Shown here piece after piece: positions 716 to 31,525 of a stretch of DNA of 46,895 nt. The translations under genes were made by a program, and so were the position numbers. This DNA comes from Clostridia bacterium (lineage in GTDB: Bacteria > Bacillota > Clostridia > Oscillospirales > Acutalibacteraceae), in the NCBI GenBank assembly GCA_017403185.1, contig JAFQON010000030.1:1-46895 (forward strand), written 5' to 3'. Under the pieces are notes generated by a model, which ran no database searches, was not told where the DNA came from, and worked only from the letters and a program-made list of their open reading frames with translations. Position 1 is the stretch's first letter. Each line of letters begins with the position of its first letter.

Positions 716-744
716 TTGACTAATAGAATTGTCAGTGCTATAAT
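716..744 (+). promoter_or_regulatory. Sigma-A promoter for the zinc-ribbon gene
   Basis: TTGACT at 716-721, a 17-base spacer and TATAAT at 739-744. This is a near-consensus vegetative promoter, 50 bases upstream of the ATG at 795. The region to its left (640-690) is very AT-rich with near-palindromic ATTATA runs that could hold the XRE regulator's operator. Confidence 0.8.
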
Positions 745-794
745 CAATGTGCAAAATTTAATTTGTATAAATGAAAAAGAGAGGAAGATTTTTA

Positions 795-1625
795 ATGAAA
801 TGCAAAAATTGCGGCAAAGAAATTGACAATGATTCAAAATTCTGTGACGGTTGCGGAGCAGAAAACACTGTGAGCGAAGCTCCTTCTGCCACCGCAGGCA
901 ATAACGAGGCATCGCCGCCCCCTGTCGTGCAGAGTGTAACGGAAACCAAGAAGCAAAAGCTTAAATTCAAAGACCTGCCGCCCAAAGAAAAGAAAAAGCG
1001 AGCAATCATCGGCGGAATATGCCTTTTACTTGCTCTGATTTTGATTTTCGGTGATGTTTTCGGCGGCTCGAGCGGTAAAGTCAAAAGCAGCAATAACGAT
1101 ACAGGTGCGGTGTTTGACATGACATTTGACGAATTCAGTGAAAAAATCAACGAAGCCAACGCTGATTATGAAAAGCTTATGGGTGCCGACAAAAGCGGTT
1201 TTGATATAAGTGAATATTGGAGCAACATGGTAGAGCCACAGGTGGGCTATGAAGAAACATCCGGCACGGAATTTGTGATGTATACCGCTTTTCTGAGCAA
1301 CTGTGTGCTTTCGGCAAATGTGCAGGATGATGATGTTTCATCAGTTTCCGTTTCATATGAATATGACGACCCCGCTTACGGTGATATGGTAACGGAAATC
1401 GCCATAAGTGCCTGCCTTGATGTTGATAATGATGAGGCTGTTTCAATCGTTGATGCAATTTGCGAAGGTGAAGCGCAAGGCATACAGACTGTTGTTTATG
1501 CAGACGGCGTTATGATTTCGCTCATAGGCGGAAGCAGTTCAAAAATAACATTCAAAATTGCCGCTGTATCCGATGATTTCACAGAGCTTCTCGAAAACGG
1601 TGGCTGCCGCATTATTGAATGGTAA
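795..1625 (+). CDS. Zinc-ribbon, single-pass membrane protein, unknown function
   Basis: A 276-residue protein. The ATG at 795 is chosen over the one at 771 because GAGAGGAAG lies 8-10 bases before it and the protein then starts directly with the zinc ribbon. Residues 1-24 hold CxxC...CxxC (CKNCGKE, FCDGCGAE), a short zinc ribbon. A Pro/Ala-rich and Lys-rich stretch follows, then a membrane segment at about 82-102 (IIGGICLLLALILIFG), with the Lys-rich flank predicting N-in/C-out. The C-terminal 170 residues are acidic and presumably outside. Such zinc-ribbon plus membrane plus outer-domain proteins are widespread in Clostridia and mostly uncharacterised. The next gene has the same N-terminal layout. 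Confidence 0.85.
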   Translation: MKCKNCGKEIDNDSKFCDGCGAENTVSEAPSATAGNNEASPPPVVQSVTETKKQKLKFKDLPPKEKKKRAIIGGICLLLALILIFGDVFGGSSGKVKSSNNDTGAVFDMTFDEFSEKINEANADYEKLMGADKSGFDISEYWSNMVEPQVGYEETSGTEFVMYTAFLSNCVLSANVQDDDVSSVSVSYEYDDPAYGDMVTEIAISACLDVDNDEAVSIVDAICEGEAQGIQTVVYADGVMISLIGGSSSKITFKIAAVSDDFTELLENGGCRIIEW

Positions 1626-1630
1626 AAATA

Positions 1631-1659
1631 TTGCAATTAACAACAATAAAAGATATAAT
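1631..1659 (+). promoter_or_regulatory. Sigma-A promoter for the second zinc-ribbon gene
   Basis: TTGCAA at 1631-1636, a 17-base spacer and TATAAT at 1654-1659, located in the short gap between the two zinc-ribbon genes. It would give the second gene its own transcript in addition to read-through. Confidence 0.7.
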
Positions 1660-1681
1660 GTCATTGTAAGGAGTGAGTTTT

Positions 1682-3229
1682 ATGTTTTGTAAAAACTGCG
1701 GCAAGGACTTACCGGATGAAAGCCAGTTTTGTCCTTATTGTATGACAAAATTCAACACCGAAACAAAGATTGAACCTCAATCGCCCGAAAAAGTAAAAAA
1801 GAACGGCAAAAAGCTCCCTGTAATCATTACCGCTGCCGTGTTATGTGTTGCGCTTATCGTTTCGGCAATAATTGTTGTACCAAAGCTTGTCAAAAAGAAA
1901 GAAGATAAAGGAGGCAGCCCTTTGGCGGGTGAAACTCTTGATGCAGAAAACGCAATTGCTCAGGATTCACAAACAACAGCTCCCGCAGAAGTTAAGATAA
2001 TGCCCGAAAACGATAATGCTCTTGGTCTTATGAATGTCAAACTGCGTAACGAAGGCGTTGAGCTCTCTGACATCGAAAAGCTCATTGTTCAGTATTTTGA
2101 CACCGACTATTTCCGTGCACCCTACAGCTCATTGCAGCGCTATCCTCAGGTTTATAAGGATGCTCAGATTAATTTTCTCTGTCACATAACCAAAATCATT
2201 GAGAGCAACGCCGAGGAATACACCGCTCTTGTTGAATACGAAGCATACAAAAACTCCGAAGGCTTCTATTGGGAAACGGGAGATTATGCCGTTATCAAGG
2301 GCACACAAAGCGAAACGAGAATAATGGAGGGTGACACTCTCTATCTTTACGGAAAGTATGTTGATGTGAACACCTACACCGTTGACGGCAAGAGCTATAC
2401 CGTTCCCACCGTTCTCGTTAACCGCTACTCATATTTCTCCGAGTATGACAGAGTCAGACCGATGTATTCAATGGAAGAAATCCGCTCAATGGCAAAATAC
2501 ATTTTCGGCGATGACATTAAACTCAGATATACAAAATACGGTGATGTAGCCGGCAGCGATTACGACTATGATTTATATGAGGGCTTATATTACACCGCAG
2601 AGCTTGATAATCAGAGCAATGCCAATTTCACAAAATATCTTTTCTTTGCAGGTTACGGCGGATATATCATCGACTGCAAATCAGAATATCCTGTTGAAAG
2701 AAATCTGACCTTCTCTGCAGACTTTGAGCATTTCTATCTTGAAGTATTCGATAAATCGTTGAAAGTATATACTCTTGAATGCTATGACAGAGATTTGAAA
2801 AAAATCTGGAGCCGCGAGTTTGACCAGACAACAAGCTCAGTTATCGACTACACTAAAGACCACATTTATCTTGTCGCAAACGGCAGTATGTATATAATTG
2901 ATGCGAAAACGGGTGAAAATGCAGTCGACCCTAAATATGTAGGTGCAAAATCCGAAGTCCGAAAGCTTGAAGACGGAATTCTTCTTGTTTCTCATAAAAG
3001 CGCCGATGCAGTTATGAAAACCGATCTTTCAGGCAATGTTCTTTGGACTGCAAATCTTTCAAAAGATATGACCGAACCGAGCGCACCCGAAGATATCCCC
3101 GTTGTTCAGCTTATCGGCGGCAACTATGTTATTCAATACAACGCAGTTACCAACGGATATCCCGACGGAACATACACCGCAGTCATCACCCCCGACGGCA
3201 CCGTTGATTTTGACGGTGAGGCATTTTAA
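1682..3229 (+). CDS. Zinc-ribbon membrane protein with propeller-like C-terminus
   Basis: A 515-residue protein. The start is the ATG at 1682, 8 bases after AAGGAG; a GTG at 1673 overlaps that ribosome binding site and is unlikely. Residues 1-24 form a zinc ribbon (CKNCGKD..FCPYC). Lys-rich residues precede a membrane segment at about 42-64 (VIITAAVLCVALIVSAIIVV), predicting an outer C-terminus. Residues about 120-270 are an unrecognised globular domain. The last 170 residues contain repeated strand patterns such as 'HIYLVANGSMYIIDAKTGE' and 'LLVSHKSADAV', like a partial PQQ/WD-type beta-propeller. Likely a surface-exposed sensor or envelope protein; no specific function is claimed. It shares layout but not obvious outer-domain similarity with its upstream neighbour. 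Confidence 0.85.
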   Translation: MFCKNCGKDLPDESQFCPYCMTKFNTETKIEPQSPEKVKKNGKKLPVIITAAVLCVALIVSAIIVVPKLVKKKEDKGGSPLAGETLDAENAIAQDSQTTAPAEVKIMPENDNALGLMNVKLRNEGVELSDIEKLIVQYFDTDYFRAPYSSLQRYPQVYKDAQINFLCHITKIIESNAEEYTALVEYEAYKNSEGFYWETGDYAVIKGTQSETRIMEGDTLYLYGKYVDVNTYTVDGKSYTVPTVLVNRYSYFSEYDRVRPMYSMEEIRSMAKYIFGDDIKLRYTKYGDVAGSDYDYDLYEGLYYTAELDNQSNANFTKYLFFAGYGGYIIDCKSEYPVERNLTFSADFEHFYLEVFDKSLKVYTLECYDRDLKKIWSREFDQTTSSVIDYTKDHIYLVANGSMYIIDAKTGENAVDPKYVGAKSEVRKLEDGILLVSHKSADAVMKTDLSGNVLWTANLSKDMTEPSAPEDIPVVQLIGGNYVIQYNAVTNGYPDGTYTAVITPDGTVDFDGEAF

Positions 3230-3240
3230 TATGTTATCAA

Positions 3241-3271
3241 AACTCCGCTGTGCGCATTGCACGGCGGAGTT
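3241..3271. terminator. Bidirectional intrinsic terminator
   Basis: AACTCCGC ... GCGGAGTT stem with GTGC/GCAC inner pairing, followed by TTTTTTG on the plus strand and preceded by ATCAAAA, which gives a T-run on the minus strand. It sits between the convergent zinc-ribbon gene and the LRR surface-protein gene and can serve both. Confidence 0.85.
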
Positions 3272-3277
3272 TTTTGA

Positions 3278-6200
3278 TTAATAATCTTCTCTTTTCTCGG
3301 GCATAAACAAAGCCTGCAAATCCGAAAACTGAAAGCTGAATTTATAAAAGCGGACCGTAACGCTGTCTGACGCAATAACATTGCCCGCTCTGTCCGTAAC
3401 GGTGAGGGTTATTGTTGCTCTCCTTGCAAAGAAGAAGCCTTTGTTTGTAACCTTTCCGTTTTTGTCAACAAGCACCTTTGAATTATCGGAGCTCCATTTT
3501 ATGCTGTAATTTTCGGAATCGGTCAAACTGCATTCAAGCTGAAGCGATTCGCTTGAATAGCCCTTGTACCACTTCACTTTTTTGTTATATTCATTTATGC
3601 TTTCGCCGTTCAGCGTGATTTCAGCATCAAGCTTATCCGCAGAAACGGTTATTTCAAACGATGCACTCTTTGTTATCTCGTTCAGCGTGTAATAAACCGT
3701 AACGGTTTTTGTGCCGACTGATGTTGTATCAACCGACGAAACATCATAATCCGTGATAACCTCGGCAGTGCCGTTACTCATAAGTCGTGTTATCTCCATA
3801 CCCGAAAGGTCAAGCCTTTCACCGAGAGAATACGCAAGCTTATCAGGCATTCGGGTAACGGAAATACCGCTGAGAACATTTTCAACCTCAATAACGGCAA
3901 ACTCGCTGAAATGATCGGTTTCAAATACAATGTAGTTACCGTCAAGCGTGCTCGTAAATCTCACAAGCGGGTCAACAGGGTCATCCGTAACATGATAAAC
4001 CCTGCATTTTTCGGGCTTTACGCCGTCGGGAATTCTGATTTTAACCGATACAGTGCCGTCAGGCTGCACCTTTGCACCGTCACGGATAAGGTTGATATCA
4101 TAATACTGAACGCTCTTTATGTAGCCGCCCACGGCGAAATTGGCGGTTTCAAAATTTGACGGATCAAGCATATCAACGGTGAGCGCTGTTGTGGGATAAA
4201 TCACCTTTGCCGTTGCGCTGACCACAACGCCGTTGGGCTCGTTTCGGAGAATAACTTCGGCATATGCAAGAGCAGAAATTGCAGAATATATTCTGTCGGC
4301 AAAGCTGTCAACAATAGCCTGTTGAGTGATATTGAGAGTGTAATCAACCGCAGCAATGCTCTGGTCAAGGATTTCAAGCGTTGCCTGAGAGTAGAGAAGC
4401 CTGTCAAGCTTTTCGCTTTCAGCTATAGCTTGGTTAACTCTTGTGTAATCCGCAGGAAGATATTCAAGCTTGTCAATCGCTTCGTTAATAGCTTTGGCGT
4501 ATTCGGTAACCTTATCCTGATTTGTAATATCGAGTTCTCTGTCTACCGCTGCAATCGCATCATCAAGCTTTGCAAGGCTCTCGGCAGTGTAAAGCGAACG
4601 GTCAAGAGCTTCTGCCCGCTTGCGTGCCGATTCAACTGCATAATAATCTGCAGGCTTATATTTCAGATTTTCAACAGCAGCAATTATTGCATCTGCATAT
4701 TTCTGCACGGCAGACTGATTTGTAATATCAAGCTCTTTATCTACCGCTGCAACCGCATCATCAAGCTTTGCAAGAGAATCATCGGTATAAAGCTTTCTGT
4801 CAATAAAATTTACTTTTTCAACTGCAGCATCAACAGCCGCATAATCCGCAGGCTTATATTTCAGCAAGTCAATCGCATTGTTTATTGCATCTTTCCACGC
4901 ATCAACCTGAGCCTGAGTAACCCCGGGCATATCAATATCCGCCTCGGATACCGCCTTATCAAGATCTGCAAGCGACTCTTCGGTATACAGACTGCGGTCT
5001 ATGCTCCCGGCTTTTTCAAGCACTTCGGTTATGCCGCCGAATACAACCTCATCAAGAAGCACATAATCAATTCCGTATTCAACAGCAGTGTTGTGTGCTG
5101 CAGAATTTTCATAGCAGTAAATCGTCAGGGTCGGCGAGGATGAATTTGCTTTTTTAAACGGATTGCCGACAATATTAACGGTTTCCTTCGGTATTACAAT
5201 TTTTTGAAGCTGAGACCACTGACACGCATTACCTTCGATTGTGGTTACGGATGAAGGCAATACAAGCTCTTTTATATGATTGGAAGCAAAAACAAATTCT
5301 CTAAGAACGGTTACTCCGTAAGGAATATTAATTTCTTTTATTACACTGTCTTTAAAAGTGTTTTCGCCCAAATCCTTTATTCCTTCGGGCAAAGTGATTT
5401 TATATACAGAAGCTCTATTGAATGCGTATGAGCATATTTCCTCAACCGTGTCGGGTAAAATGATTTCTTTTATTTCAAATGTAACGGGAGCAGCAATGAG
5501 AACGGTTTTATCCTTGTTATAAAGAATATTATATTCGTCATCGCTGTAATATTTATTTTCTTTTGCAACATCATAGGCAGCTACCGCGCCTCCCGTAAAA
5601 GCATTCTGACCGAAATACCCCAGGCCTGCAGGGATATTTATTATTTCCTTGAGGCGATAAGATACTCTGAAAGCACTATCACCGACATACTGAATGCTTT
5701 CTGGAAAGAATGTGTCGATTCCCTCAATATTAAAGCTTTGGAACTGCTGACTGTAGCCGAAAGCTTCTTTTCCGATAAATTCGAGCTTACAGCCTTCACC
5801 GAAATTAACCGTTTCAAAAGCTCCCATCATATAGAAAGCCTGCTCTCCAATGGATTTAATGCTTGAAGGGAGATATACATTGGTTATGTAGGACTTATAT
5901 TTAAATGCTTTTGGTGCAATTGAAACTGTTCCGTCCTTAACGGTAATATTTTTATCCGCAATAAGAGGTTCGCCTCTGAATTCATAAAAAATCTTTCCCG
6001 CATAAACAGCTCCGTCGGGCTGTGATGTATACCAACCCGTGTTTTTGAGCGCATCAGAACCCATATGTATAACACTGTCGGGTATAACTATATCGGTAAG
6101 GTTTGTTTGGTCTTTAAAAGCTTCTTCGTTGATTGAAAAAGTGCCTTCTTCAACCTCAAGACAGTAGTTTTCAGGCATTTTACCTTTGTAGCCGCAAAGA

Positions 6201-6688
6201 AGATTACCGAAATATACAGGCCCGTCAGGCAGATTTCGGTACCATGTTGTTTTTGTAAGTGAGCTGCCCGAAAAATCCGCTATTTCTCTGAGCTTTATTT
6301 TATCGGAAATATCAAAAACCCCGATATTTCCGCCGTATCCTAAGGCTGAATGGCCGATTGATTCGACAGTTGAAGGTATGGTCATTTTATCAACAGAAAT
6401 TCCGTAAAAAGAATATTCGCCGATATGCGTTATGCCTTCAGAAATCACAACATAATCGATAAAATAAGAAAGCTCTTCCCAAGGCGGGTTAAGTGAAGGA
6501 TAATCAGATATTGCTCCGAAACCTTCTATGGTCAGAGTTCGGGTTTCAGTATCAAGAGTCCATGTTGCATTATCGCCGCAGACTCCTCCTGTTGTCTCCG
6601 CTGATGCTTTTGGAATGGCAGAGGTAACAAAGCCTATTTGTGCCGCAACAACGGCAATAACAAGTATAAAAGACAAAATCTTCTTCAT
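3278..6688 (-). CDS. Large secreted LRR / helical-repeat / Ig-like surface protein
   Basis: About 1136 residues from the ATG at 6688, chosen because GAGGTG lies 5-6 bases upstream and the protein then begins with a normal signal peptide (MKKILSFILVIAVVAAQ). An ATG at 6700 overlaps the upstream stop as ATGA and is the alternative. After the signal peptide come BspA-type LRR units (LRR_5 family) over about 50-540. Four helical repeats of about 65 residues follow (about 550-810), each with '(L)DRxLYTxESLAxLDxAxxxVD' and 'YxPADY', similar to FIVAR-type repeats. A beta-rich domain (815-940), a Big_3-like Ig domain (940-1020, 'SLGERLDLSGMEITRLMSNG') and a Big_2-like domain complete it. No LPXTG signal is seen. 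BspA-type proteins commonly act in adhesion; that role is inferred. Confidence 0.9.
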   Translation of the reverse strand: MKKILSFILVIAVVAAQIGFVTSAIPKASAETTGGVCGDNATWTLDTETRTLTIEGFGAISDYPSLNPPWEELSYFIDYVVISEGITHIGEYSFYGISVDKMTIPSTVESIGHSALGYGGNIGVFDISDKIKLREIADFSGSSLTKTTWYRNLPDGPVYFGNLLCGYKGKMPENYCLEVEEGTFSINEEAFKDQTNLTDIVIPDSVIHMGSDALKNTGWYTSQPDGAVYAGKIFYEFRGEPLIADKNITVKDGTVSIAPKAFKYKSYITNVYLPSSIKSIGEQAFYMMGAFETVNFGEGCKLEFIGKEAFGYSQQFQSFNIEGIDTFFPESIQYVGDSAFRVSYRLKEIINIPAGLGYFGQNAFTGGAVAAYDVAKENKYYSDDEYNILYNKDKTVLIAAPVTFEIKEIILPDTVEEICSYAFNRASVYKITLPEGIKDLGENTFKDSVIKEINIPYGVTVLREFVFASNHIKELVLPSSVTTIEGNACQWSQLQKIVIPKETVNIVGNPFKKANSSSPTLTIYCYENSAAHNTAVEYGIDYVLLDEVVFGGITEVLEKAGSIDRSLYTEESLADLDKAVSEADIDMPGVTQAQVDAWKDAINNAIDLLKYKPADYAAVDAAVEKVNFIDRKLYTDDSLAKLDDAVAAVDKELDITNQSAVQKYADAIIAAVENLKYKPADYYAVESARKRAEALDRSLYTAESLAKLDDAIAAVDRELDITNQDKVTEYAKAINEAIDKLEYLPADYTRVNQAIAESEKLDRLLYSQATLEILDQSIAAVDYTLNITQQAIVDSFADRIYSAISALAYAEVILRNEPNGVVVSATAKVIYPTTALTVDMLDPSNFETANFAVGGYIKSVQYYDINLIRDGAKVQPDGTVSVKIRIPDGVKPEKCRVYHVTDDPVDPLVRFTSTLDGNYIVFETDHFSEFAVIEVENVLSGISVTRMPDKLAYSLGERLDLSGMEITRLMSNGTAEVITDYDVSSVDTTSVGTKTVTVYYTLNEITKSASFEITVSADKLDAEITLNGESINEYNKKVKWYKGYSSESLQLECSLTDSENYSIKWSSDNSKVLVDKNGKVTNKGFFFARRATITLTVTDRAGNVIASDSVTVRFYKFSFQFSDLQALFMPEKREDY
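4262..5038 (-). repeat. Four tandem FIVAR-like coding repeats
   Basis: Inside the large surface-protein gene, four units of about 65 codons repeat with shared key residues: DR.LYT at the start, LD.A...VD in the middle, a DITNQ loop and a YKPADY-type end. The second and third units are most alike, including at DNA level (GCATCATCAAGCTTTGCAAG occurs in both). Such helical repeats usually act as spacers or ligand-binding rods in surface proteins. Confidence 0.8.
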
Positions 6689-6696
6689 AACACACC

Positions 6697-8451
6697 TCAT
6701 ATCAATTCATAATCGATTGAATTCTCAACGGCGTAGCTGTGCGCCGCCGAGCCTTCGGAGCATTTTATCGTAAGATTATCGCAGCCGCCGAATGCGTTAT
6801 CGCCTATTGAGGTTACGCTTGACGGAATTGTTATGCTTGTAAGCCGAGAGCAATCGGCAAAGGCATCGTCACCTATCATTTCGGTGCCTGACGGAATGCT
6901 GATATTCCTGAGGCTTGTGCAATTGCAGAATGCGCCTATTCCGATGCTTTCGAGAGATGACGGCAGCGAAACATAAGAGAGATATCCGCAATCCTCAAAT
7001 GCGCTCTGTCCGATTCGGTTTACCGTTGACGGGATATTAACGGACTCAATGCTGCTGTTGCCCGCAAAGGCTCCCGTGCCGATTGCGGTAATCTGCTCAC
7101 CGCCGACGATTGACGGCACATCAACGCTGCTGTCACTGCCTGTATACTCCCCTATTATGCCGTTTGATGCGCTGAAAACATCAGCCGCATTTGTTGTTAA
7201 AACAGCCGTAGTTGTTGTTTTGACAGCGGTAGTCTGTGTTATATGGGCACGGGTTGTTGTCGGCTTGGTTGTGGCGGTTGTTGTGTGTTTTGTCGCCGCA
7301 ACCGTTGTGGTTTGCCGTGCCGTTGTGCGCTTTTCTGTGTGTGCAGATGTCGAGCCTTTTGGTTTTGTAACGCCCGGCTCCGTCTGCCGGGAAAGGCTTT
7401 CGGTCAAAAGCTCCGAAGCTGCAGCTGTTTCGCTTTGCGGAAATGCTGTTTCACTGTTAATCACGGCAACAGTTGCATATTCCTCGGTCAGCGCCGCTGT
7501 CGATGTGCTCGTGGGTTCAACATTCTTCTTTTCGTTAACATAGTTCACCGTTGCAACTCCGCCGCCCGTTGTTACCGCAGCGGCAACAGCCACCGCAACC
7601 ACCTTTGCCGCAATTGTTGTGCCAAGAGTTTCTGAAACCACTGCTCCCGTTGCAACGGCACCTGCCGTTGTCGCCCCAACCGAAGCGGTGCCGGCGGATG
7701 CACCGCCCGCAACCATTCCCGCAGAGGTAGCCGTTGCAGTTGCAGCGGCAGCCGACGCAGCCTGTGTTGCTGCCAAAGCCGTTCCCTCTGCAAGAGCGGC
7801 AGGCACAACGGCATTTTTGAACTGCGAAGCAAAGAATGCCGTAACAAGCGGTATAACAGAAATACCAAGCAGCCTTTCATCCTTCTTGCGGTGCTTGCCG
7901 AATTCTTTTTCAAGCAGCTTTCTCGCTTTGTAAAGTCTGCTTTTTACCGTACCCTCGGGAATTCCGAGGATCTCCGCAATCTCAGGCAATGTGTTCCTCT
8001 CAAAATAATAAAGAACTATGCACGCCCGTTTATCTTCGGGCATCTTGTCAACTATTTCCTTAACTATCTGATTAATTTCCCTTTGTTCAATAAGGTCAAG
8101 CGGTATTTCTTCATCCTCGACAAGGTCAAAATTCTTTGAATTCAGAACTGCGGAAAAAATCTCTATCTTTTTATGATTCTGAGATATATATTTTTGACAC
8201 TCATGCTTGACAATAACCTTGAGCCAATTTGTGAAACTTTCGGGATTTCTCAAATCCTTAAGATATTTTGACACATACATATAGCTGTTCTGAAGGACAT
8301 CTTCAATGTCCTCTTTGTTTGTCAGCAGCAGGGATGCCGTGCCGTAAGAAAACTTTATCGTTTCTTTATAAAGCTTTTCAAAAGCACCCGCATCGCCGTT
8401 CTGTGCGTCAATAACCAGTTGTGTTAAATTGTCGTTTTCGATTTTATTCAT
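6697..8451 (-). CDS. ECF sigma factor fused to a transmembrane segment and LRR domain
   Basis: A 584-residue uninterrupted fusion. Residues about 8-80 match sigma region 2 ('GDAGAFEKLYKE', 'NKEDIEDVLQNSYMYV', 'ESFTNWLKVIVKHE'), and about 125-185 match sigma region 4 ('MPEDKRACIVLYYFE', 'TLPEIAEILGIPEGTVKSRL'). Residues 195-275 are hydrophobic and Ala-rich, and 278-302 can span the membrane (AAKVVAVAVAAAVTTGGGVA). A Thr/Ser-rich stalk of about 110 residues follows, with many TTT runs. Residues about 430-570 hold BspA-type LRR_5 units ('AFEDCGYLSYVSLPSSLESIGIGAF'). Topology would place the sigma part inside and the LRR outside. An ECF is normally about 160-200 residues; here the extension exceeds 380. 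Inference: a one-component membrane sensor/sigma factor that needs release or clustering to act. It has its own promoter and is followed within a few bases by the secreted LRR protein gene. Confidence 0.9.
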   Translation of the reverse strand: MNKIENDNLTQLVIDAQNGDAGAFEKLYKETIKFSYGTASLLLTNKEDIEDVLQNSYMYVSKYLKDLRNPESFTNWLKVIVKHECQKYISQNHKKIEIFSAVLNSKNFDLVEDEEIPLDLIEQREINQIVKEIVDKMPEDKRACIVLYYFERNTLPEIAEILGIPEGTVKSRLYKARKLLEKEFGKHRKKDERLLGISVIPLVTAFFASQFKNAVVPAALAEGTALAATQAASAAAATATATSAGMVAGGASAGTASVGATTAGAVATGAVVSETLGTTIAAKVVAVAVAAAVTTGGGVATVNYVNEKKNVEPTSTSTAALTEEYATVAVINSETAFPQSETAAASELLTESLSRQTEPGVTKPKGSTSAHTEKRTTARQTTTVAATKHTTTATTKPTTTRAHITQTTAVKTTTTAVLTTNAADVFSASNGIIGEYTGSDSSVDVPSIVGGEQITAIGTGAFAGNSSIESVNIPSTVNRIGQSAFEDCGYLSYVSLPSSLESIGIGAFCNCTSLRNISIPSGTEMIGDDAFADCSRLTSITIPSSVTSIGDNAFGGCDNLTIKCSEGSAAHSYAVENSIDYELI

Positions 8452-8513: not shown

Positions 8514-8598
8514 TGCTTTTGAAATAAATAAATTTTTGATTTTTCCAAAAAAGTGTGAACCATTTCTTCACTTTGAGTATCTATATAAAGAAAAAAGA

Positions 8599-15488: not shown

Positions 15489-16031
15489 ATGAGTGAAAAG
15501 AAGCGTGCAAACGCATTGCTGCAGGAATGCTATAACGAATATCGCACAAAGCTTTTCAATTATTGTATTTCACGCCTTGACGGTGCACGGGAGGCTGCAG
15601 ACGACTGTGTTCAGGAAACCTTCATTGTCTTTTATCAAAAACTCCTTGACGGCGAGCACTTTGAAAATCCAAGGGCGTTCCTCTATCGCACAGCCGACAA
15701 CTTCGTCAAGCGGCAAAAGCAGAAGGCCGCTTCGGAGTTGCGGCGGGAGGTACCCCTTGAAAGCGCAGCGGATATAGGCGTGAGTGATGAAGAATACGCT
15801 GCACGGCTTGATTTAATTGACTATGAGGAATGTGCAAAAATCCTTATAAATCTTCTCGGTGACGATGAAAAACGGATGTATGATTTGCGTTACATTCAGA
15901 AAATCGGAGTTGAAGAGATAGCGGAAAGGCTCGCAATATCAAGGCCTGCCGCATCAATGCGGTTAATGCGGCTCAGAAACAAAATTAAAGATATGGTTTA
16001 TTCTTTTGATATCGAAAAGAAAGGAGGCTGA
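15489..16031 (+). CDS. ECF-type RNA polymerase sigma factor
   Basis: A 180-residue sigma factor. Region 2 spans about 10-75 ('CYNEYRTKLFNYCISRLDG', 'EAADDCVQETFIVFYQK', 'NPRAFLYRTADNFVKRQKQK'). Region 4 spans about 115-170 ('LLGDDEKRMYDLRYIQKIGVEEIAERLAIS', then 'SMRLMRLRNKIKDMV'). Ribosome binding site GAAAGGAG is near ideal. It heads an apparent operon that continues with a membrane anti-sigma-like protein four bases later and two very large LRR surface proteins. The ECF-like motif upstream suggests it reads its own promoter. The exact ECF subgroup cannot be assigned by eye. Confidence 0.92.
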   Translation: MSEKKRANALLQECYNEYRTKLFNYCISRLDGAREAADDCVQETFIVFYQKLLDGEHFENPRAFLYRTADNFVKRQKQKAASELRREVPLESAADIGVSDEEYAARLDLIDYEECAKILINLLGDDEKRMYDLRYIQKIGVEEIAERLAISRPAASMRLMRLRNKIKDMVYSFDIEKKGG

Positions 16032-16035
16032 CGGA

Positions 16036-16977
16036 ATGATGACGGTAAGCAGAGATATACTCATGCACCCCGATTTTATCGAAAACATGGCGGATGAGCT
16101 TTACGAAATGCTTGAAGCGCTTATTGATGCGGAATTCGATAAGGGTGATGACACGGATTTTGATTTTATTGACGAATGTGCAGATGCGATTAATGCAATC
16201 CGTTCGGGTGACACGGCACAGATTCTGCCCGTTATCTCACGCAGAGATTTCATCAACAAGGTCAGCGGCTCTTCACACAAAACACTCAGGGCTGCACTTG
16301 CGGTTTGCGCGGCAATTGCAGTGGTTATAGGTGCAAACACACTTTTAAAAGAAACACGGAACATTGATGTTTTTGAAGAGGTTGCAGGCTTCTTCAACGA
16401 GCTTTTCGGCGAAAAGCCCGTGACGATTGAAACAACTGCCCCCTCAATGGCTCCGGTTCAGACAGCTGCTCCCGCAGTAACCGGCATCGGAGTAGAATTA
16501 AGCGACAGCTTCAAATCCGAATATTATGTGGGCGAGGAATTCTCAGCAGACGGCATAAGCGTTTTTGCCGAGTACGACAACGGCGAAAGAAAGCTGCTTG
16601 AGAAAAACGGATTTGCCGTTATTGTAAGCCCGAATTTCGGCGAAAGCGCAAAATATGAAACGGTAACAATTCAGATGGGAAGCTTCAGAGAATACCTTGA
16701 AGTGAGAGTTATCGACAGCATATCTACCAAAAAGCTGAGTTCAATTTATGCAATATTCCCCGATGATTTTGACTTCACCACAGATGATTTGGATGATATC
16801 GGTCTTGACGAAATGCAGGTTTATGCCGTTTACAGCAACGGCGAAGAAGCAGAGCTCTCTGCGGGCGACTATGAGGTCAGCATTGAAAAAGAAAAACGGC
16901 TGTTTGAAGAATACGCAACCGTAACCGTTGAACACAATGGCTGTTCATGCTCGTTCATGGTATTTAAGGCTGATTAG
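16036..16977 (+). CDS. Putative transmembrane anti-sigma factor with Ig-like ectodomain
   Basis: 313 residues from the ATG at 16036, which follows AGGAGG. Residues 1-80 are acidic and probably cytoplasmic; there is no HxxxCxxC zinc finger, so the name rests on position and topology. One membrane segment lies at about 84-104 (LRAALAVCAAIAVVIGANTLL). A Pro/Thr-rich stretch (128-147) leads to two Ig-like units of about 80 residues. The first is clearly Big_3-like ('YYVGEEFSADGISVFAEYDNGE'); the second is weaker ('QVYAVYSNGEEAELSAGDYEV'). These bacterial Ig units also occur in the LRR surface protein at 3278-6688. Inference: it holds the upstream sigma at the membrane and senses something outside, like RsgI proteins of SigI systems. 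Confidence 0.75.
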   Translation: MMTVSRDILMHPDFIENMADELYEMLEALIDAEFDKGDDTDFDFIDECADAINAIRSGDTAQILPVISRRDFINKVSGSSHKTLRAALAVCAAIAVVIGANTLLKETRNIDVFEEVAGFFNELFGEKPVTIETTAPSMAPVQTAAPAVTGIGVELSDSFKSEYYVGEEFSADGISVFAEYDNGERKLLEKNGFAVIVSPNFGESAKYETVTIQMGSFREYLEVRVIDSISTKKLSSIYAIFPDDFDFTTDDLDDIGLDEMQVYAVYSNGEEAELSAGDYEVSIEKEKRLFEEYATVTVEHNGCSCSFMVFKAD

Positions 16978-16990
16978 GAGGTATACAATA

Positions 16991-19900
16991 ATGAAAAGAA
17001 AAATTTTATCTTTTTTGCTCATATTCACGCTGATTATTGCATCGGCTCCCCTTGCAGGCATTGACCTTGGAGATATATTTGCACTCCGTGCCGAGGCGTA
17101 TGTTCAGAAAGATCCTTCACACAAGGTGTGGGGCGACTATATTTATAAGTTCGATGATTACTACGGCGGTGAAAACGAAGAACTTATACTTGTGAAATAC
17201 ACGGGCAGCGAAAAGAATATTGTCGTTCCCTCCGAAATTGACGGGCACCCCGTTGATATTATCGGCAAGGAATGCTTCAGCTACAACGGCATAACCACAA
17301 TCGAGCCTCCTGTGGGCGAAAGCATCATCCCCGCAAACCCCGCTCTTAAAGAGATTGAAAGCGTTGTTCTGCCCGACACAATCATAGGCATTCAGAATGA
17401 TGCCTTTGCAAACTGCACAAAGCTCACTTCGGTAAACTTCCCTGAAAGCCTTGAATTTATTGAGTATCAGGCTTTTGACGGCTGTGACAGCCTTAAGGAA
17501 ATCACCCTGCCCGGCAAGGATATAAGCTACGGTGACTACTGCTTTCGTGCAGATATAGAGAAAATTACGCTTAACGAAGGTATGACAATAATCCCCGCAG
17601 CGATGTTTGAAGGAACAAAGGCGGAAAGCTTAACAATTCCGTCAACCGTGAAAAGGATTGACATTCAGGCGTTTTATCGCAGCCGCATAAAAACGGTTAC
17701 GGTTGAAGGATACCTTACACCTTCATTTCTGACCACTCCCGAGCTTAATTTTATGGCTTCCGAATCCCACAAGCTTGACAAGGTTATGTTCAGATATATG
17801 CCGTGCAGTATGTCATATTATGATATATACGATGTAACCTACAATGAGGAGAGCGGATACTGGGAATGCGTGCGCATTGCCGAGAGCGGCACTCCCAATG
17901 TTTATAACGATCAGTCATTTGACTATATTCTCAAAGACGGCGAGGCAACCCTCATAAAATACACGGGCACAAATCCTTATGTTGTAATGCCAAAAACAGT
18001 CGGCTTCCCCGGCATAAATCTTGGCACGGTAACGGAAATCGGCAGCAATGTTTTTAAGGGCACAGAGGTAACTAAGGTTATTATATCCGACACAATAAAA
18101 CGTATAGGCACCTCGGCTTTTGCAAACTGCTCTTCGCTCACTGAGGTTGTTATCCCCGAATCGGTTGAAAAAATCGGCAATGCCGCATTTTTTGCCTGCA
18201 CGGGGCTTGAAACGGTAACTCTGCCCGAATCCGTGAAGGATATCGGCACCAAGGCTTTTCAGTCTTGCTCAAATCTTAAGACGGTAAGCTGGCCGTCATC
18301 GCTTATATATGTACCCTCTGACGCATTCCGCAACTGCAGAAATCTCACCGATTTCAGCGTTTTCATGAATGTTGAAATCATTGCAGGCGGCGCATTCAAC
18401 GGCTGCGAATCGCTTGTTATTGATGACTTCGGCGATAAAATCAGAGAAATCGGTGATTATGCTTTCGTCCCATCAACGAGCGGCAATGCCGGAATTCCCG
18501 GTGCGGTTATCAACACAACCGAATTGCCCGAGAGCCTTGAATACCTCGGCTACCGTGCATTTGCTTATAACAGTTCTTTGAAGGAAATTGTAATCCCCGA
18601 AAAAGTGAGCCGCATTGAGGGCTGCACCTTTGAAGAATCTGCGCTCGAAAAAGTAACGATTCTTGCACCGCTCAAGGAAATCGGGGCGGGTATGTTCAGC
18701 CATACTGCGATAAAATCAATTGATCTGCCCGAAGGGCTTGAAAGAATAGGCGCCAAAGCATTCGACCACTCGGAGATTGAAGAAATCAACTTCCCCGACA
18801 CGGTGAATTACATAGGCGAAAAAGCTTTCTGGGGCTGCAGAAACATCAGCAGCATTGAAATCCCTCCCCTTGTCACAAAGATAAACGAACGAACCTTTTG
18901 CGACATTTCAATCGAGAGCATTGTTATTCCGTCAACCGTTAAATCCATAGGTAATTACAGCTTCAGCGCTTGCAAAAACCTTAAGGATATAACCATTGAA
19001 AACGGTGTTGAAAAAATCTGTTCTTTCGCATTTGCAAAGTGTGCCGCAAAGGAAATAACAATCCCCGAGAGCATAAACTACCTCGGCTTCGATATAATTG
19101 AAGATTCTCAGGTTGAAACCGTATACTACAATGTTGCAGGCTGCCCCGAAACTCTGCCGAGCATATCCTCGGATGATTACCCTGTTGTCGGCGGTCTCAT
19201 GCTCAAAAAGGTTGTTTTCGGCGATAAGGTCAAAAAGGTACCCATGTATTTTGCGTATAAGAGCAGCACACTTGAAGAGGTTGTTTTCTCAGACAGCATT
19301 GAAGAAATTGCAGGCTACGCCTTCTATCAATGCAATGCTTTGAAAAAGATGACCTTGCCTGAAAACCTCAAAAGAATCGGCACCTGCGCCTTTAAGGAAT
19401 GCAAATTGCTCTCGGAAATCAATCTGCCTGACAGCCTTGAAGAAATAGCGTCTCAGGCTTTCACAAACTGCACGGCACTTACGGAAATCACTCTGCCCGA
19501 AGGGCTCAGAAGCCTTCACAACAGCGCCTTCTCGGGCTGCAACAGCATCAAAACCATAAATTTCAACGCCGTAAGCTGCGAATTTTTAAGCCTCAGGCAA
19601 TCAAACATTGAAGGCATTTATTATTCGCCCTTCAACTTGCTGAAATCTCTTGAAACGATAAATCTCGGCTCAAAAATCAAGGAGCTGCCGGCTTACCTTT
19701 TCTGCGGAATTGATAACATAAGCAGCATTGTTCTGCCCTCAACGGTTACGGATGTGGGGGTTGGCGCATTCGCCTTCAGCGGCATAACAAGCTTCAAAGG
19801 CTCCGAAAACCTTGAAAGCATTGAGGAATACGCCTTCTACGGCTGTGATAAGCTCACCGCTGCAAACCTTTGCTGCAACATTATGCTCATCGGAGCATAT

Positions 19901-21016
19901 TCCTTCAGCGGCTGCGGCGCACTGACCGAAATTTATATTCCCGACAGCGTAACAATAATCGAAATGGAAGCTTTCAAAGACTGCCCCGCCCTTCACACGG
20001 TAAGAATGTCCGCCAATGTTGACTACATACCCCGTGAAGCGTTCTATGACTGCAAGGAGCTTTCAACCTTCACATGGGAGGCGGAAAGCAAGCTTGTCGG
20101 CAGGCTCGCCTTCGGCAATTGCGTAAAGCTCGGCGATTTTGATTTTGTGAATGTTGAAAAGCTCTATATCAACAGCTTCCTCGGCAGCGGCGTTACGGTT
20201 GTTCAGCTTGGCGAAAGCATAAACGAAGAAAGCCGCACTCCGCTCAAAACCGTTGAAGTGCAGAGCTTCAAGGACTGCACAAGCCTTGAAACCCTCGGCA
20301 TCGGCGGCAGCGTTTCAACCGTTAAATCGCAGGCATTTGCAGACTGCACAAACCTTGAAACTGCAGTTATTGCAGACAGCGTTACACAGATTGCTCCCGA
20401 TGCCTTTGACGGCTGCGACAATCTGACAATCTATTGCAGCGAAAATTCATACGCATATTCATATGCTCAGACACAAGGCATCAAGGTGAGCACCTTTGTG
20501 ATTGCGCCTATCCCCAATCAGACCTATACGGGCTCTGAGATAAAGCCCGAGGTTTCGGTTTCAATTTCGGGCGATACTCTGAGCAAAAATGTTGACTTCG
20601 GCGTAACATATGCAAACAACATCAATGTGGGTAAAGCCGATGTTGATGTTAAAGGCAAAGGCGATTTCAGAATGTATGCAAGCAGGGCGAATTTCACAAT
20701 CGTGACAAAGAGCATTTCAAATGCGGTTATCGCCGATATCCCCGCTCAGAATTACACGGGCGATGCCGTTACTCCTTCGCTCACCGTTACAGACGGAGCA
20801 AATATATTGCGTGAAGGCGTTGACTACACCGTAACCTATAAAAATAACACTAAGGAAGGCACCGCAACGGCTGAGATAAAGGGCATCGGCAACTATTCGG
20901 GCTCGGCAAAGGCAAGCTTTGAAATTGAGCGTCAGAGCGTCATTCAGCGCATCATCAGTGCTCTTGCATCGTTTTTCAACACTTTCCTTGCAGTGATAAA
21001 ATCAGTTTTCTCTTAA
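16991..21016 (+). CDS. Giant secreted BspA-type LRR surface protein
   Basis: 1341 residues from the ATG at 16991, 7 bases after GGAGG; an upstream in-frame ATG at 16928 lies inside the previous gene. Signal peptide at 1-36 (KRKILSFLLIFTLIIASAPL...AEA). From about 60 to 1165 it is almost entirely LRR_5 units of 22-24 residues with 'AFxxCxxLxxIxLPxSVxxIGxxAF' pattern. Residues 1169-1241 and 1242-1315 are two beta-domains with 'Y(T)G..I.P..(S/T)V..G..L..(N/G)VD(F/Y).VTY.NN...G.A...(I/V)KG.G.(F/Y)'. The last 25 residues are hydrophobic and amphipathic (QRIISALASFFNTFLAVIKS). No LPXTG is seen. The likely role is adhesion or polymer binding at the cell surface, inferred from the BspA family. The C-terminal third is nearly duplicated in the next gene. 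Confidence 0.92.
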   Translation: MKRKILSFLLIFTLIIASAPLAGIDLGDIFALRAEAYVQKDPSHKVWGDYIYKFDDYYGGENEELILVKYTGSEKNIVVPSEIDGHPVDIIGKECFSYNGITTIEPPVGESIIPANPALKEIESVVLPDTIIGIQNDAFANCTKLTSVNFPESLEFIEYQAFDGCDSLKEITLPGKDISYGDYCFRADIEKITLNEGMTIIPAAMFEGTKAESLTIPSTVKRIDIQAFYRSRIKTVTVEGYLTPSFLTTPELNFMASESHKLDKVMFRYMPCSMSYYDIYDVTYNEESGYWECVRIAESGTPNVYNDQSFDYILKDGEATLIKYTGTNPYVVMPKTVGFPGINLGTVTEIGSNVFKGTEVTKVIISDTIKRIGTSAFANCSSLTEVVIPESVEKIGNAAFFACTGLETVTLPESVKDIGTKAFQSCSNLKTVSWPSSLIYVPSDAFRNCRNLTDFSVFMNVEIIAGGAFNGCESLVIDDFGDKIREIGDYAFVPSTSGNAGIPGAVINTTELPESLEYLGYRAFAYNSSLKEIVIPEKVSRIEGCTFEESALEKVTILAPLKEIGAGMFSHTAIKSIDLPEGLERIGAKAFDHSEIEEINFPDTVNYIGEKAFWGCRNISSIEIPPLVTKINERTFCDISIESIVIPSTVKSIGNYSFSACKNLKDITIENGVEKICSFAFAKCAAKEITIPESINYLGFDIIEDSQVETVYYNVAGCPETLPSISSDDYPVVGGLMLKKVVFGDKVKKVPMYFAYKSSTLEEVVFSDSIEEIAGYAFYQCNALKKMTLPENLKRIGTCAFKECKLLSEINLPDSLEEIASQAFTNCTALTEITLPEGLRSLHNSAFSGCNSIKTINFNAVSCEFLSLRQSNIEGIYYSPFNLLKSLETINLGSKIKELPAYLFCGIDNISSIVLPSTVTDVGVGAFAFSGITSFKGSENLESIEEYAFYGCDKLTAANLCCNIMLIGAYSFSGCGALTEIYIPDSVTIIEMEAFKDCPALHTVRMSANVDYIPREAFYDCKELSTFTWEAESKLVGRLAFGNCVKLGDFDFVNVEKLYINSFLGSGVTVVQLGESINEESRTPLKTVEVQSFKDCTSLETLGIGGSVSTVKSQAFADCTNLETAVIADSVTQIAPDAFDGCDNLTIYCSENSYAYSYAQTQGIKVSTFVIAPIPNQTYTGSEIKPEVSVSISGDTLSKNVDFGVTYANNINVGKADVDVKGKGDFRMYASRANFTIVTKSISNAVIADIPAQNYTGDAVTPSLTVTDGANILREGVDYTVTYKNNTKEGTATAEIKGIGNYSGSAKASFEIERQSVIQRIISALASFFNTFLAVIKSVFS
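20440..21010 (+). repeat. Direct repeat, copy 1, of the surface-protein 3' end
   Basis: The region encoding the two beta-domains and tail is closely matched by 23397-23966 in the next gene. The stretch 20603-20694 is identical over 92 bases to 23559-23650. Identity also at silent positions points to recent duplication or gene conversion. Confidence 0.85.
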
Positions 21017-21032
21017 TAAGGAGGCTTGAACA

Positions 21033-23972
21033 ATGAAAAAAATCCTCAAAAAGCTTCTGTGCTGCGTTATGATATTTGCCGTAGCTGCCGCATCCGCTCC
21101 GCTTTTAGGTATTGATACGGTTATCCCCGCCGCCGCAGAATCTGAAACAGGCAAATCAACCGAAGGGCTGAAAGGCCGCCAATACACCGACAACTATATC
21201 TATCGCAGATACAGCGAATACGGAATCGCCATAGTAAAATATACGGGCGAGATGGGCGAATATTTTGAAATTCCGTCTGAAATTGAAGGGTACAGGGTCG
21301 AGAGACTTGACCAAAGCTCGTTTTCACCGTACGGAATCAACTATGTTGACAGCGATGACAATGATGTGCCCAACAACCCGAGTATGAACAACCTCAAAGA
21401 AATAAGCATACCGCCAACCGTAAGGGTAATCAGCAGCGGTGCCTTTGAAAAATGCGAAAACCTTGAAAAGGTCAATTTTTCAGAGGGACTTGAAACTATA
21501 TGGTGGAGAGCTTTCAAAGACTGCAAAAAGCTGACCTCCTTTGATTTCCCGAGCACGCTTGTCGATATTTATTCGCACAATTTCGACGGCACGGCGGTAA
21601 CCGAGGTGCTTTTCAAGAAAAACACCTATTATGACTGGTTTGCCGTGAACAGCGATCTCTTTTCATGCTCTCAGGTCATAAAGTGCACCGTGCAGGGCGA
21701 CGGCGTGAGGGTTGACAAAGACGCATTCTGCAACTCAGTGCTCAGAGAAATCATTTTTGAGGGCACCGTTGTTCTGTTTGAAAACGGGGCGTTTGATAAG
21801 GATGACAACACCGTTGAAAAGCTTGTTTTCAAATCGGGAATGCCTGACGGCACTTATGAGATGCTTATTAACGATTACGGCTACCATGCACACATTGACC
21901 CCGTTGACAACTCGGTTTATTTTGACAGGAATGCAGAAAACACTGATTATATCAGCGGTGACTTTGCTTATGCACTGAATGATGCTTTGCAGGCAACAAT
22001 CACCAGATATACGGGCTCAAAAACTGCCGTTACCGTGCCCGAAAAGATAGACGGCTACACCGTTACAGAAATAGGCGGCTTTGCATTCCGTGAGGATGAT
22101 GAAAGCGCAGGCGTTGTTTCGGTCAGCCTGCCCGACACGGTAAAAAGCATCGGCGCATACGCCTTCTACGGCTGCGAAGCCCTTGAAGAAATAAACACCC
22201 CCGCCACTCTTGAAACTATCAACAGCTATGCCTTCTGCGGCTGCACAAACCTCAAGGCGTTTGATGTGCCCGAAGCTCTGACTTTTCTGGGCGATTACGC
22301 CTTCAGCCGATGCGAGAGCCTGAAAAGAATTGACCTGCCCGACAGCATAGAAAAAATCTGCAACGGCGTTTTCATGGGCTGCACGGCAATTGAAAAAATA
22401 AGAATGCCGCAACACATAAAAACAATAGGCATAAGCAGCTTTGAGGGCACAAAAGCCCTTGAGGAAATTGATTTGCCCGAAACACTCACAATCATTGACG
22501 ACAGAGCTTTTCACGGCAGCGGAATAAAAAGCGTTATCCTGCCCAAAAGCCTTGAGTATCTGCTTGAAGGCGTGTTTGACGAATCTGGCGTTGTGACTGC
22601 CGTTATCGACGGTAAAGACCTTTTGCTCAGCTGGGCATTCCGTGACTGCCCTTACCTTGAAACGGTTGAAATCAGAAACGGTGTTTCGGAAATATGGGGT
22701 GCCGCATTCGCTGACTGCCCCTCCCTTAAAACCGTAACACTCCCTGAAAATCTTAAGGAAATTGAGCCCAAGGCTTTCTCAAATTGCGTTAATCTTGAAA
22801 CGGTTTATTATAATGCGATAAACTGCGAGGTGCACACAAGTTCCATAAACCCGAAGAACCCCGTTTTCTTTAACTGCAACCCCGAAAACATTTACATAGG
22901 CGACAAGGTTGAATATCTTGGTGCGGCATTGTTCATGGACTGTGAAACTCTTGTGAGCGTCACCCTGCCCGACAGCGTAACAACCGTTGACCGTAACGCA
23001 TTCTACAGCTGTGCAGAGCTTACAAGCGTTGAATGGAACGCCGTAAGCAAGCACATAGGCCAAAGAGCTTTTGCGGACTGCCCGAAGCTCACGGGCTTTG
23101 ATTTCAGCAACATCGAAAAATCATATTCAAACAGCTTCAAGGGCAGCGGCATAGTCAAAGCTCAGCTCGGTGAAACAAAAGACGAAACACCCTCAAACCT
23201 TCAGGTTATTGAAACTCAGGCATTTATGGAATGCGAAAATCTTGAAACAGTCGGCATAGGCGGCAATGTTTCAACCGTTGAAGCTCAGGCATTTGCCGCT
23301 TGCACCAACCTTGAAACGGCAGTTATTTCAGACAGCGTGACGGATATTGCAAACGATGCCTTTGAGGGCTGCGACAAGCTCACCATTTATTGCGCTGAGA
23401 ATTCCTATGCACACTCCTACGCACAGACCCAGGGCATTAAAGTAACCACCTTTGTGATTGCACCCATCCCCAATCAACCCTATACAGGCTCTGAGATAAA
23501 GCCCGAGGTTTCAGTTTCGCTTTCAGGCGATACTCTGAGCAAGAATGTTGACTTCGGAGTAACATATGCAAACAACATCAATGTGGGTAAAGCCGATGTT
23601 GATGTTAAAGGCAAAGGCGATTTCAGAATGTATGCAAGCAGGGCGAATTTTACAATCGTGACCAATAAAATTTCAAATGCGGTTATCGCCGAAATCCCTG
23701 CTCAGAATTACACGGGTGAAGCAGTCACTCCTTCACTGACCGTCACTTACGGCTCAAGCATCCTTCGTGAAGGCGTTGATTACACCGTAACATATAAAAA
23801 CAACACCAAGGAAGGCACCGCAACGGCTGAGATAAAGGGCATCGGCAACTACTCAGGCTCGGCAAAGGCAACATTTGAAATTGAGCGGCAGAGCGTTATT
23901 CAGCAGCTTATCAGCGCAGTCTCAACATTTATCAATTCGATTTTTGCAATTATAAAATCAGTTTTTGCCTGA
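21033..23972 (+). CDS. Secreted BspA-type LRR surface protein, paralogue
   Basis: 979 residues, start after AAGGAGG and 16 bases from the previous stop. The N-terminus is a signal peptide (KKILKKLLCCVMIFAVAAASAPLLG). LRR_5 units run from about 60 to 800, interrupted at about 180-320 by less regular segments. Residues from 807 onward duplicate the two 'YTG' beta-domains of the upstream protein, and the end has the same hydrophobic tail ('FINSIFAIIKSVFA'). LRR surfaces differ much more than the C-terminal part, suggesting different ligands presented on a common base; that is inference. No LPXTG or lipobox is seen. Confidence 0.92.
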   Translation: MKKILKKLLCCVMIFAVAAASAPLLGIDTVIPAAAESETGKSTEGLKGRQYTDNYIYRRYSEYGIAIVKYTGEMGEYFEIPSEIEGYRVERLDQSSFSPYGINYVDSDDNDVPNNPSMNNLKEISIPPTVRVISSGAFEKCENLEKVNFSEGLETIWWRAFKDCKKLTSFDFPSTLVDIYSHNFDGTAVTEVLFKKNTYYDWFAVNSDLFSCSQVIKCTVQGDGVRVDKDAFCNSVLREIIFEGTVVLFENGAFDKDDNTVEKLVFKSGMPDGTYEMLINDYGYHAHIDPVDNSVYFDRNAENTDYISGDFAYALNDALQATITRYTGSKTAVTVPEKIDGYTVTEIGGFAFREDDESAGVVSVSLPDTVKSIGAYAFYGCEALEEINTPATLETINSYAFCGCTNLKAFDVPEALTFLGDYAFSRCESLKRIDLPDSIEKICNGVFMGCTAIEKIRMPQHIKTIGISSFEGTKALEEIDLPETLTIIDDRAFHGSGIKSVILPKSLEYLLEGVFDESGVVTAVIDGKDLLLSWAFRDCPYLETVEIRNGVSEIWGAAFADCPSLKTVTLPENLKEIEPKAFSNCVNLETVYYNAINCEVHTSSINPKNPVFFNCNPENIYIGDKVEYLGAALFMDCETLVSVTLPDSVTTVDRNAFYSCAELTSVEWNAVSKHIGQRAFADCPKLTGFDFSNIEKSYSNSFKGSGIVKAQLGETKDETPSNLQVIETQAFMECENLETVGIGGNVSTVEAQAFAACTNLETAVISDSVTDIANDAFEGCDKLTIYCAENSYAHSYAQTQGIKVTTFVIAPIPNQPYTGSEIKPEVSVSLSGDTLSKNVDFGVTYANNINVGKADVDVKGKGDFRMYASRANFTIVTNKISNAVIAEIPAQNYTGEAVTPSLTVTYGSSILREGVDYTVTYKNNTKEGTATAEIKGIGNYSGSAKATFEIERQSVIQQLISAVSTFINSIFAIIKSVFA
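23397..23966 (+). repeat. Direct repeat, copy 2, of the surface-protein 3' end
   Basis: Partner of 20440-21010, offset by about 2956 bases. Identical over 92 bases at 23559-23650. Recombination between the copies would delete or fuse the two surface-protein genes in frame. Confidence 0.85.
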
Positions 23973-31503: not shown

Positions 31504-31525
31504 ACAGATGAAAGGCGGTGAAAAT

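Follow-up and report, generated by a model that had tools for sequence, protein, structure and literature searches.

Does a single clostridial gene join an ECF sigma factor to an outer LRR domain through the membrane, and is such a fusion one odd gene or a member of a family? The question arose from a preliminary description of the stretch of DNA analysed here (46,895 nt, contig JAFQON010000030.1 of a gut-type Clostridia bacterium; hereafter the window), which read one uninterrupted frame at 6697..8451 as a membrane-tethered sigma factor with its own LRR domain and no separate anti-sigma factor. We found that the frame is indeed open over 584 codons, with the correction that its coding strand is the minus strand.

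Domain layout and comparison with known systems

The gene (6697..8451, minus strand, as are all its parts below) starts with ATG and encodes a 584-aa protein (P0001) that runs from an ECF sigma part through a linker, a membrane helix and a stalk to an LRR domain. Sigma70 region 2 occupies residues 27–92 (8176..8373) and region 4 residues 129–180 (7912..8067), followed by a hydrophobic patch at residues 194–211 (7819..7872, placed by alignment, with a Kyte-Doolittle (KD) mean of 1.53), an Ala/Gly/Thr-rich linker at residues 213–282 (7606..7815, 27 Ala in 70 residues), a membrane-spanning helix at residues 284–302 (7546..7602, KD mean 1.94, preceded by Lys283), a Thr-rich stalk at residues 309–425 (7177..7527, 35 Thr in 117 residues, mostly with pLDDT below 50) and a BspA-type LRR outer domain at residues 426–584 (6700..7176). 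In Pfam, Sigma70_r4_2 (residues 129–180, 54 bits against a cut-off of 25.7) and LRR_5 (residues 444–561, 116 bits against 27.7) scored above threshold, while Sigma70_r2 was marginal and fell just under it (residues 27–92, 22.7 bits against 24; 24 bits when the N-terminal part was scanned alone). The NCBIfam sigma70-ECF model TIGR02937 matched at 86.4 bits (cut-off 42.9), and regions 2 and 4, the former marginal, were the sole sigma regions found by Pfam, as in ECF factors. The parts listed in the preliminary description are therefore all present in one protein by Pfam and NCBIfam scans, hydrophobicity and composition, with region 2 the one of its three expected Pfam families that is not clear-cut.

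An AlphaFold2 model of the window protein (36-row alignment, mean pLDDT 71.5) was confident for sigma regions 2 (helices) and 4 and for residues 422–583, while most of residues 252–419, including the membrane helix, fell below 50 pLDDT. By Foldseek and sequence, the sigma part resembled SigmaE/SigW-type ECFs and the LRR part resembled TpLRR (6mlx) and a Faecalibacterium surface protein (4gt6), so that LRR_5 repeats and the TpLRR fold are common to the window protein and the BspA-type LRR surface proteins. The latter begin with a signal peptide, as the product of the downstream gene (P0002) also seems to do. In the window protein this N-terminal signal is absent, the N-terminus being sigma region 2, and the export signal is instead the internal membrane helix behind the sigma part.

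No anti-sigma domain was recognised by Pfam in the linker of the window protein or of the scanned members of its family, which we refer to as chassis proteins after their shared sigma-linker-TM build. The zinc-finger domain zf-HC2 was absent from the window protein at E-values up to 1, and from the matches listed (25 of 45 families) for 21 chassis members. Outside the membrane, the window protein matched LRR families only in Pfam, and the FecR-type anti-sigma domain that forms the periplasmic part of IutY (ECF243) was not among them. A domain scan of the two genes adjoining the sigma-LRR gene revealed neither an anti-sigma factor, in line with the preliminary description, nor a receptor gene.

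Tethered one-piece ECF sigma factors as a general kind are already in print: going by excerpts of the papers, they comprise a few cases, with IutY dissected (PMC5411451), SCO4117 of group ECF52 characterised (PMC5826349) and other groups predicted (PMC8999054, PMC10766802). IutY of Pseudomonas putida likewise has an N-terminal ECF sigma part, a single membrane helix and an exported C-terminal part, and is activated by proteolysis (PMC5411451). In its Gram-negative host, however, an outer-membrane receptor drives the outer part, which is a periplasmic anti-sigma domain, where the window protein has LRR and other chassis proteins have further kinds of outer part. ECF52 (SCO4117, Streptomyces coelicolor), ECF48 and ECF53 also place a membrane helix, a low-complexity stalk and an outer domain behind the sigma part; in the excerpt, ECF52 has a carbohydrate-binding outer domain, a Pro-rich stalk and a zinc-finger domain between sigma part and helix, and is described as confined to Actinobacteria (PMC5826349). 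The window protein has the helix, the low-complexity stalk and an outer domain, in its case LRR, and lacks the zinc finger. ECF262 (Ruminococcus albus SFB89493.1), a group from a clostridial genus of the gut, is entered in Table 2 of PMC8999054 as carrying a regulatory extension, its mechanism given as “others”, and, judged by that table description only, the chassis family may be the same group. Searches of the open-licence literature listed no study of an LRR-bearing or a clostridial tethered ECF, and neither swappable outer domains on such a factor nor a tie to exported neighbours.

Within the clostridia, the SigI/RsgI system similarly combines a sigma factor with a membrane sensor; those are two proteins, whereas the window system is one. 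In Clostridium thermocellum, the membrane sensor of this system detects substrate and is cut by RseP within its helix, according to an excerpt of PMC12203970.

The chassis family and its outer parts

The preliminary description regarded the layout as one without a recognised precedent. In the open-licence literature covered here, we likewise met none for the LRR outer part on its stalk. The protein is not alone, though: the search among relatives that the description proposed recovered at least 95 distinct proteins in which the chassis is kept, seven of them from the same genome. The fusion is thus neither chance nor unique. Of the 95, 55 belong to the same taxonomic family as the window, a share that partly reflects sampling, since this family received the deepest search. 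Homologues with sigma and LRR parts split into separate genes at a conserved break had been named as evidence against a true fusion; no such break showed up among the 95. The set was derived from 99 long proteins by dropping L097, L128, L165 and L068; L097 is a chassis gene broken by an in-frame TGA. Among the 90 proteins in which region 4 and the helix are fewer than 160 residues apart, the spacing had a median of 94 residues (quartiles 86 and 101); the other five were set aside, and one more was dropped for the 89-row tree used below.

When 150 genomes of this family were searched with the window protein, the matches listed included more frames built in this way, several of them in the window's own genome. 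With the sigma-to-TM parts of 21 proteins aligned as a search model (A1), we obtained matches in 35 of 300 genomes of the family at an E-value of 1e-48 or better, in 10 of 291 genomes of the class at 1e-52 and in 8 of 299 genomes of the phylum at 1e-48, the window's own genome being included each time. It gave six A1 matches and thus holds at least six chassis genes. Among the seven other genomes of the phylum search, the match extended as far as the model's TM end in one, already known from the class search, and was confined to the sigma part in the remaining six. The best of the matches listed in a scan of named genomes came mostly from uncultured clostridia (two labelled sheep rectum and goat colon), with some Erysipelotrichales. 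Separately, ECF sigma parts were seen in frames of about 860–1150 aa (G298:C3:35733 and others) where the match ends at the sigma part, perhaps another type with a long extension.

The outer parts of the 95 proteins varied widely. Pfam assigned LRR_5 to 25 and LRR_8 to 14 of them, numbers in which LRR members are possibly over-represented because the A1 rows were drawn from matches to the whole of P0001, LRR included. WG repeats (3) and Big_2 (2) followed, and CAP, lipase_3, lipocalin, SH3_3, copper amine oxidase N1 and others occurred in single cases, with some outer parts matching nothing. All-against-all clustering yielded 39 clusters, 26 of them singletons. Two genes of G015 share 81% of their sigma part, although their outer parts are LRR and CAP, respectively, and the tandem neighbours L260:3009 and L260:5725 of G398 share 85% and are adjacent on the tree, with LRR in only one. 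On the evidence of these sequences, the kept inner chassis carries many exchangeable outer parts, LRR among them. The L260 locus (739-8115, minus strand) carries three chassis genes in tandem, and their outer parts differ.

Swapping is only part of this history. On the 89-row sigma tree, the LRR label required a minimum of 10 changes, of which well supported branches impose 7, against a mean of 19.8 when shuffled, suggesting that LRR outer parts are also partly inherited. The window protein itself formed a clade with L276, L264 and L265 (98% SH-aLRT in a quick sigma tree), all of which have LRR outer parts and intact frames and come from three other genomes. A Thr-rich stalk, in contrast, was not adopted as a family trait, since the T/S/P fraction was only mildly higher in the stalks than further out (0.28 vs. 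0.23).

Between L264 and L265, dN/dS was 0.125 in the sigma part, 0.36 in linker plus TM, 0.30 in the stalk and 0.16 in the LRR part, and this purifying selection on both sigma and LRR parts indicates that the fused gene is kept whole in these relatives. The draft state of the window's genome (50 contigs, 80.3% complete) leaves room in principle for a fusion made by assembly or sequencing error; with both halves under selection in two orthologues and the same layout in other genomes, across the 95 chassis proteins, such an artefact is exceedingly improbable. For L042 and L202, the values were 0.08 in linker plus TM and 0.064 in the sigma part, almost equal constraint on the two, and over five pairs, the window protein being in none of them, sigma-part dN/dS lay between 0.06 and 0.17. 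These values also speak against a sigma part that no longer works as a sigma factor and instead anchors a surface adhesin, or serves its docking, on the cytoplasmic side. The region 2 score just under the Pfam cut-off and the divergence of the clade would fit that reading; together with the enrichment of ECF-like promoters in the family (below), the constraint makes it improbable.

Membrane topology and adjoining genes

The placement of sigma inside and LRR outside, as first described, is favoured by the residues around the helix. We took the helix to be the strongest hydrophobicity peak 45–400 residues behind region 4, and in the 90 chassis proteins it reached a KD of at least 1.6 in 86 and had Lys at its start in 74. 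The 15 residues on its N-side contained on average 2.02 K/R and 0.13 D/E, and the 15 on its C-side 1.49 K/R and 2.02 D/E, a bias expected of a single N-in/C-out helix. A natural duplication points the same way: in G100 (L295 4506-8845), two lipoprotein-like LRR genes lie directly behind a fused sigma-LRR gene and open with a copy of its TM segment (41 residues aligned at 66% identity); across the full alignment they share 52% identity with the fused protein. The Cys behind the copy looks lipobox-like in our reading. Reuse of the TM segment at the start of these genes implies that the sigma's TM doubles as an export signal, and charge bias and duplication together support a sigma part inside and an LRR part outside, joined by one helix. 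XAA degradation motifs, as in RsgI, occurred in the helices of 74 of 90 proteins versus 61.3 in shuffled helices, a difference too weak to use.

The weak point of this topology is the patch after region 4, which, if it were a second helix, would put the LRR part inside. The patch is conserved in kind, and its KD reached 1.6 in 9 of 90 proteins and 1.5 in 18 of 95, the window protein among the 18; we rejected a second TM as a general trait on these numbers. Positive residues also follow the helix, and ECFs with internal protein-interaction extensions exist, presumably including TPR in ECF42 and WD40 in ECF57 (PMC8999054, in excerpt), so that one could envisage a wholly cytoplasmic protein, or one whose C-terminal part loops back, with LRR as an internal interaction domain. 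Given the hydrophobicity and N-in charge bias of the helix, its reuse for export in G100 and the CAP, Big_2 and SH3_3 outer domains of sister proteins, we consider this very improbable.

Upstream of the sigma-LRR gene lie ATP synthase genes (epsilon, beta) and a terminator-like hairpin. Downstream lies the gene for P0002 (3278..6700, minus strand), a secreted-looking LRR/Big_3 protein of 1140 aa by Pfam and its signal-like N-terminus, the start of which overlaps the sigma-LRR stop by 4 bases (or is the next ATG, 12 bases later). The LRR parts of P0001 and P0002 are 29% identical in their best-scoring stretch. The same gene pair is present in L276, another genome of the genus, with 38% identity of the downstream orthologue over nearly its full length, while no LRR gene follows the clade orthologues L264 and L265.

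Neighbour sets covered 92 of the 95 chassis genes, and 57 of the 92 had a downstream neighbour, defined as a same-strand gene of at least 150 aa no more than 400 bases away. By a hydrophobicity rule, 41 of these 57 were exported-like (42 in the first version of the rule), compared with 18 of 67 other adjacent genes (p = 7.5e-7). LRR genes made up 18 of the 57, compared with 4 of 66 upstream and 0 of 17 opposite-strand downstream genes, controls that, unlike the 57, had no gap limit. Chassis genes themselves account for 4 of the 57 and 2 of the 18. Behind plain ECF genes in the window's genome and related ones, exported-like genes numbered 2 of 25 and LRR genes 0 of 25; in a second set taken from genome contigs, the counts were 3 and 0 of 40. 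Of eight scanned proteins downstream of plain ECFs, six carried zf-HC2, all from related genomes; the two from the own genome were a beta-propeller protein and one with no Pfam match, and two further own-genome ECFs adjoin a zf-HC2 gene. The idea that an LRR sensor is mirrored by an LRR gene downstream was dropped (6/15 LRR-bearing vs. 12/42 other chassis genes, Fisher p = 0.52).

An exception to this contrast between fused and plain genes lies in the window itself. At 15489-23972 (plus strand), a plain ECF gene (15489-16031) precedes genes for a Big_3 membrane protein (16006-16977) and two large LRR proteins, by its sequence a split version of the sigma/LRR theme. With an ordinary ECF and zf-HC2 anti-sigma pair at 31508-32645 (plus strand), the 47-kb window holds three sigma architectures: fused, split and paired. 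A 724-aa frame at 29198-31372 (minus strand) had no Pfam match at E 0.001.

The pattern AAC-N15-18-CGTC is the form of many ECF promoters. Of 89 chassis genes, 9 have it in their upstream regions, and the pattern also fits upstream of L116:2240, L200 and L218. The reverse strand gave 3, and first-order Markov-resampled upstream regions a mean of 1.7, none of 300 resamplings reaching 9. Upstream of the window's sigma-LRR gene, no ECF promoter was recognisable and matches were weak and sigma-A-like, so that self-regulation is supported for some chassis members only. An inverted repeat there (GTGAA-N7-TTCAC, 8555-8571) is a possible operator.

Proposed mechanism and meaning for clostridial sensing

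We propose that the window protein is probably a one-component transmembrane ECF sigma factor with an outer LRR sensor, released by proteolysis to activate its own operon. The sigma domain would be held at the cytoplasmic face of the membrane by the Ala-rich linker and the single helix, as the topology supports, with the LRR domain outside on its Thr-rich stalk as the presumptive sensor. A signal at the LRR domain would expose stalk and helix to a site-1 protease and then to an M50 site-2 protease, and cleavage would free the sigma domain for RNA polymerase. The freed sigma domain would then turn on its own operon, which, from the gene arrangement, would include the adjoining secreted LRR gene. 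An M50 protease gene is present in the window's genome, and also in 14 of 14 control genomes, a near-universal presence that is not specific support for proteolysis.

Membrane transcription factors of the ToxR/CadC kind act while tethered, and ligand-driven clustering or a conformational change could likewise free regions 2 and 4 here with no proteolysis. The 70-residue linker, with its 27 Ala, could let a tethered sigma part reach the polymerase. The modelled sigma part lies nearer to SigW in the SigW-RsiW complex (TM-score by target 0.77–0.79) than to the holoenzyme-bound ECFs listed (0.30–0.42), which fits such a switch as well as release. The likeness is uneven, however, the SigmaE-RseA and AlgU-MucA complexes fitting poorly (0.45–0.51), and the compact SigW-like shape of the model may be a habit of the predictor. 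Substrates of intramembrane proteases are often Gly-rich, and the helix has on average 2.8 Gly in 19 residues over the 90 proteins, which argues against action while tethered. So does IutY, the sole experimentally dissected relative in kind, which is released by Prc and RseP according to the excerpt of PMC5411451. From this, we regard tethered action as unlikely, though the most serious of the alternatives, and prefer release by proteolysis.

The gene at 6697..8451 is not one odd gene but a member of a family of what are most likely one-piece sigma receptors, and the preliminary description was right in outline. More tentatively, the family could be a clostridial receptor system in one piece, similar in kind to chemoreceptors or RsgI, in which a kept chassis with shuffled sensors typically stands before the exported protein that it would control, with no anti-sigma factor. 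At the G100 locus, at least, sensor and downstream surface proteins are copies of each other, which may mean that the cell senses its own coat, and the Ala-rich tail on a released sigma part could be a degradation tag that limits the response to a short pulse. The family offers many natural sensor swaps on one chassis, and swapped paralogues within one genome are ready-made chimeras. It makes testable how a tethered ECF sigma factor is kept off without an anti-sigma factor, and what the many BspA-type LRR proteins of clostridia are used to sense.
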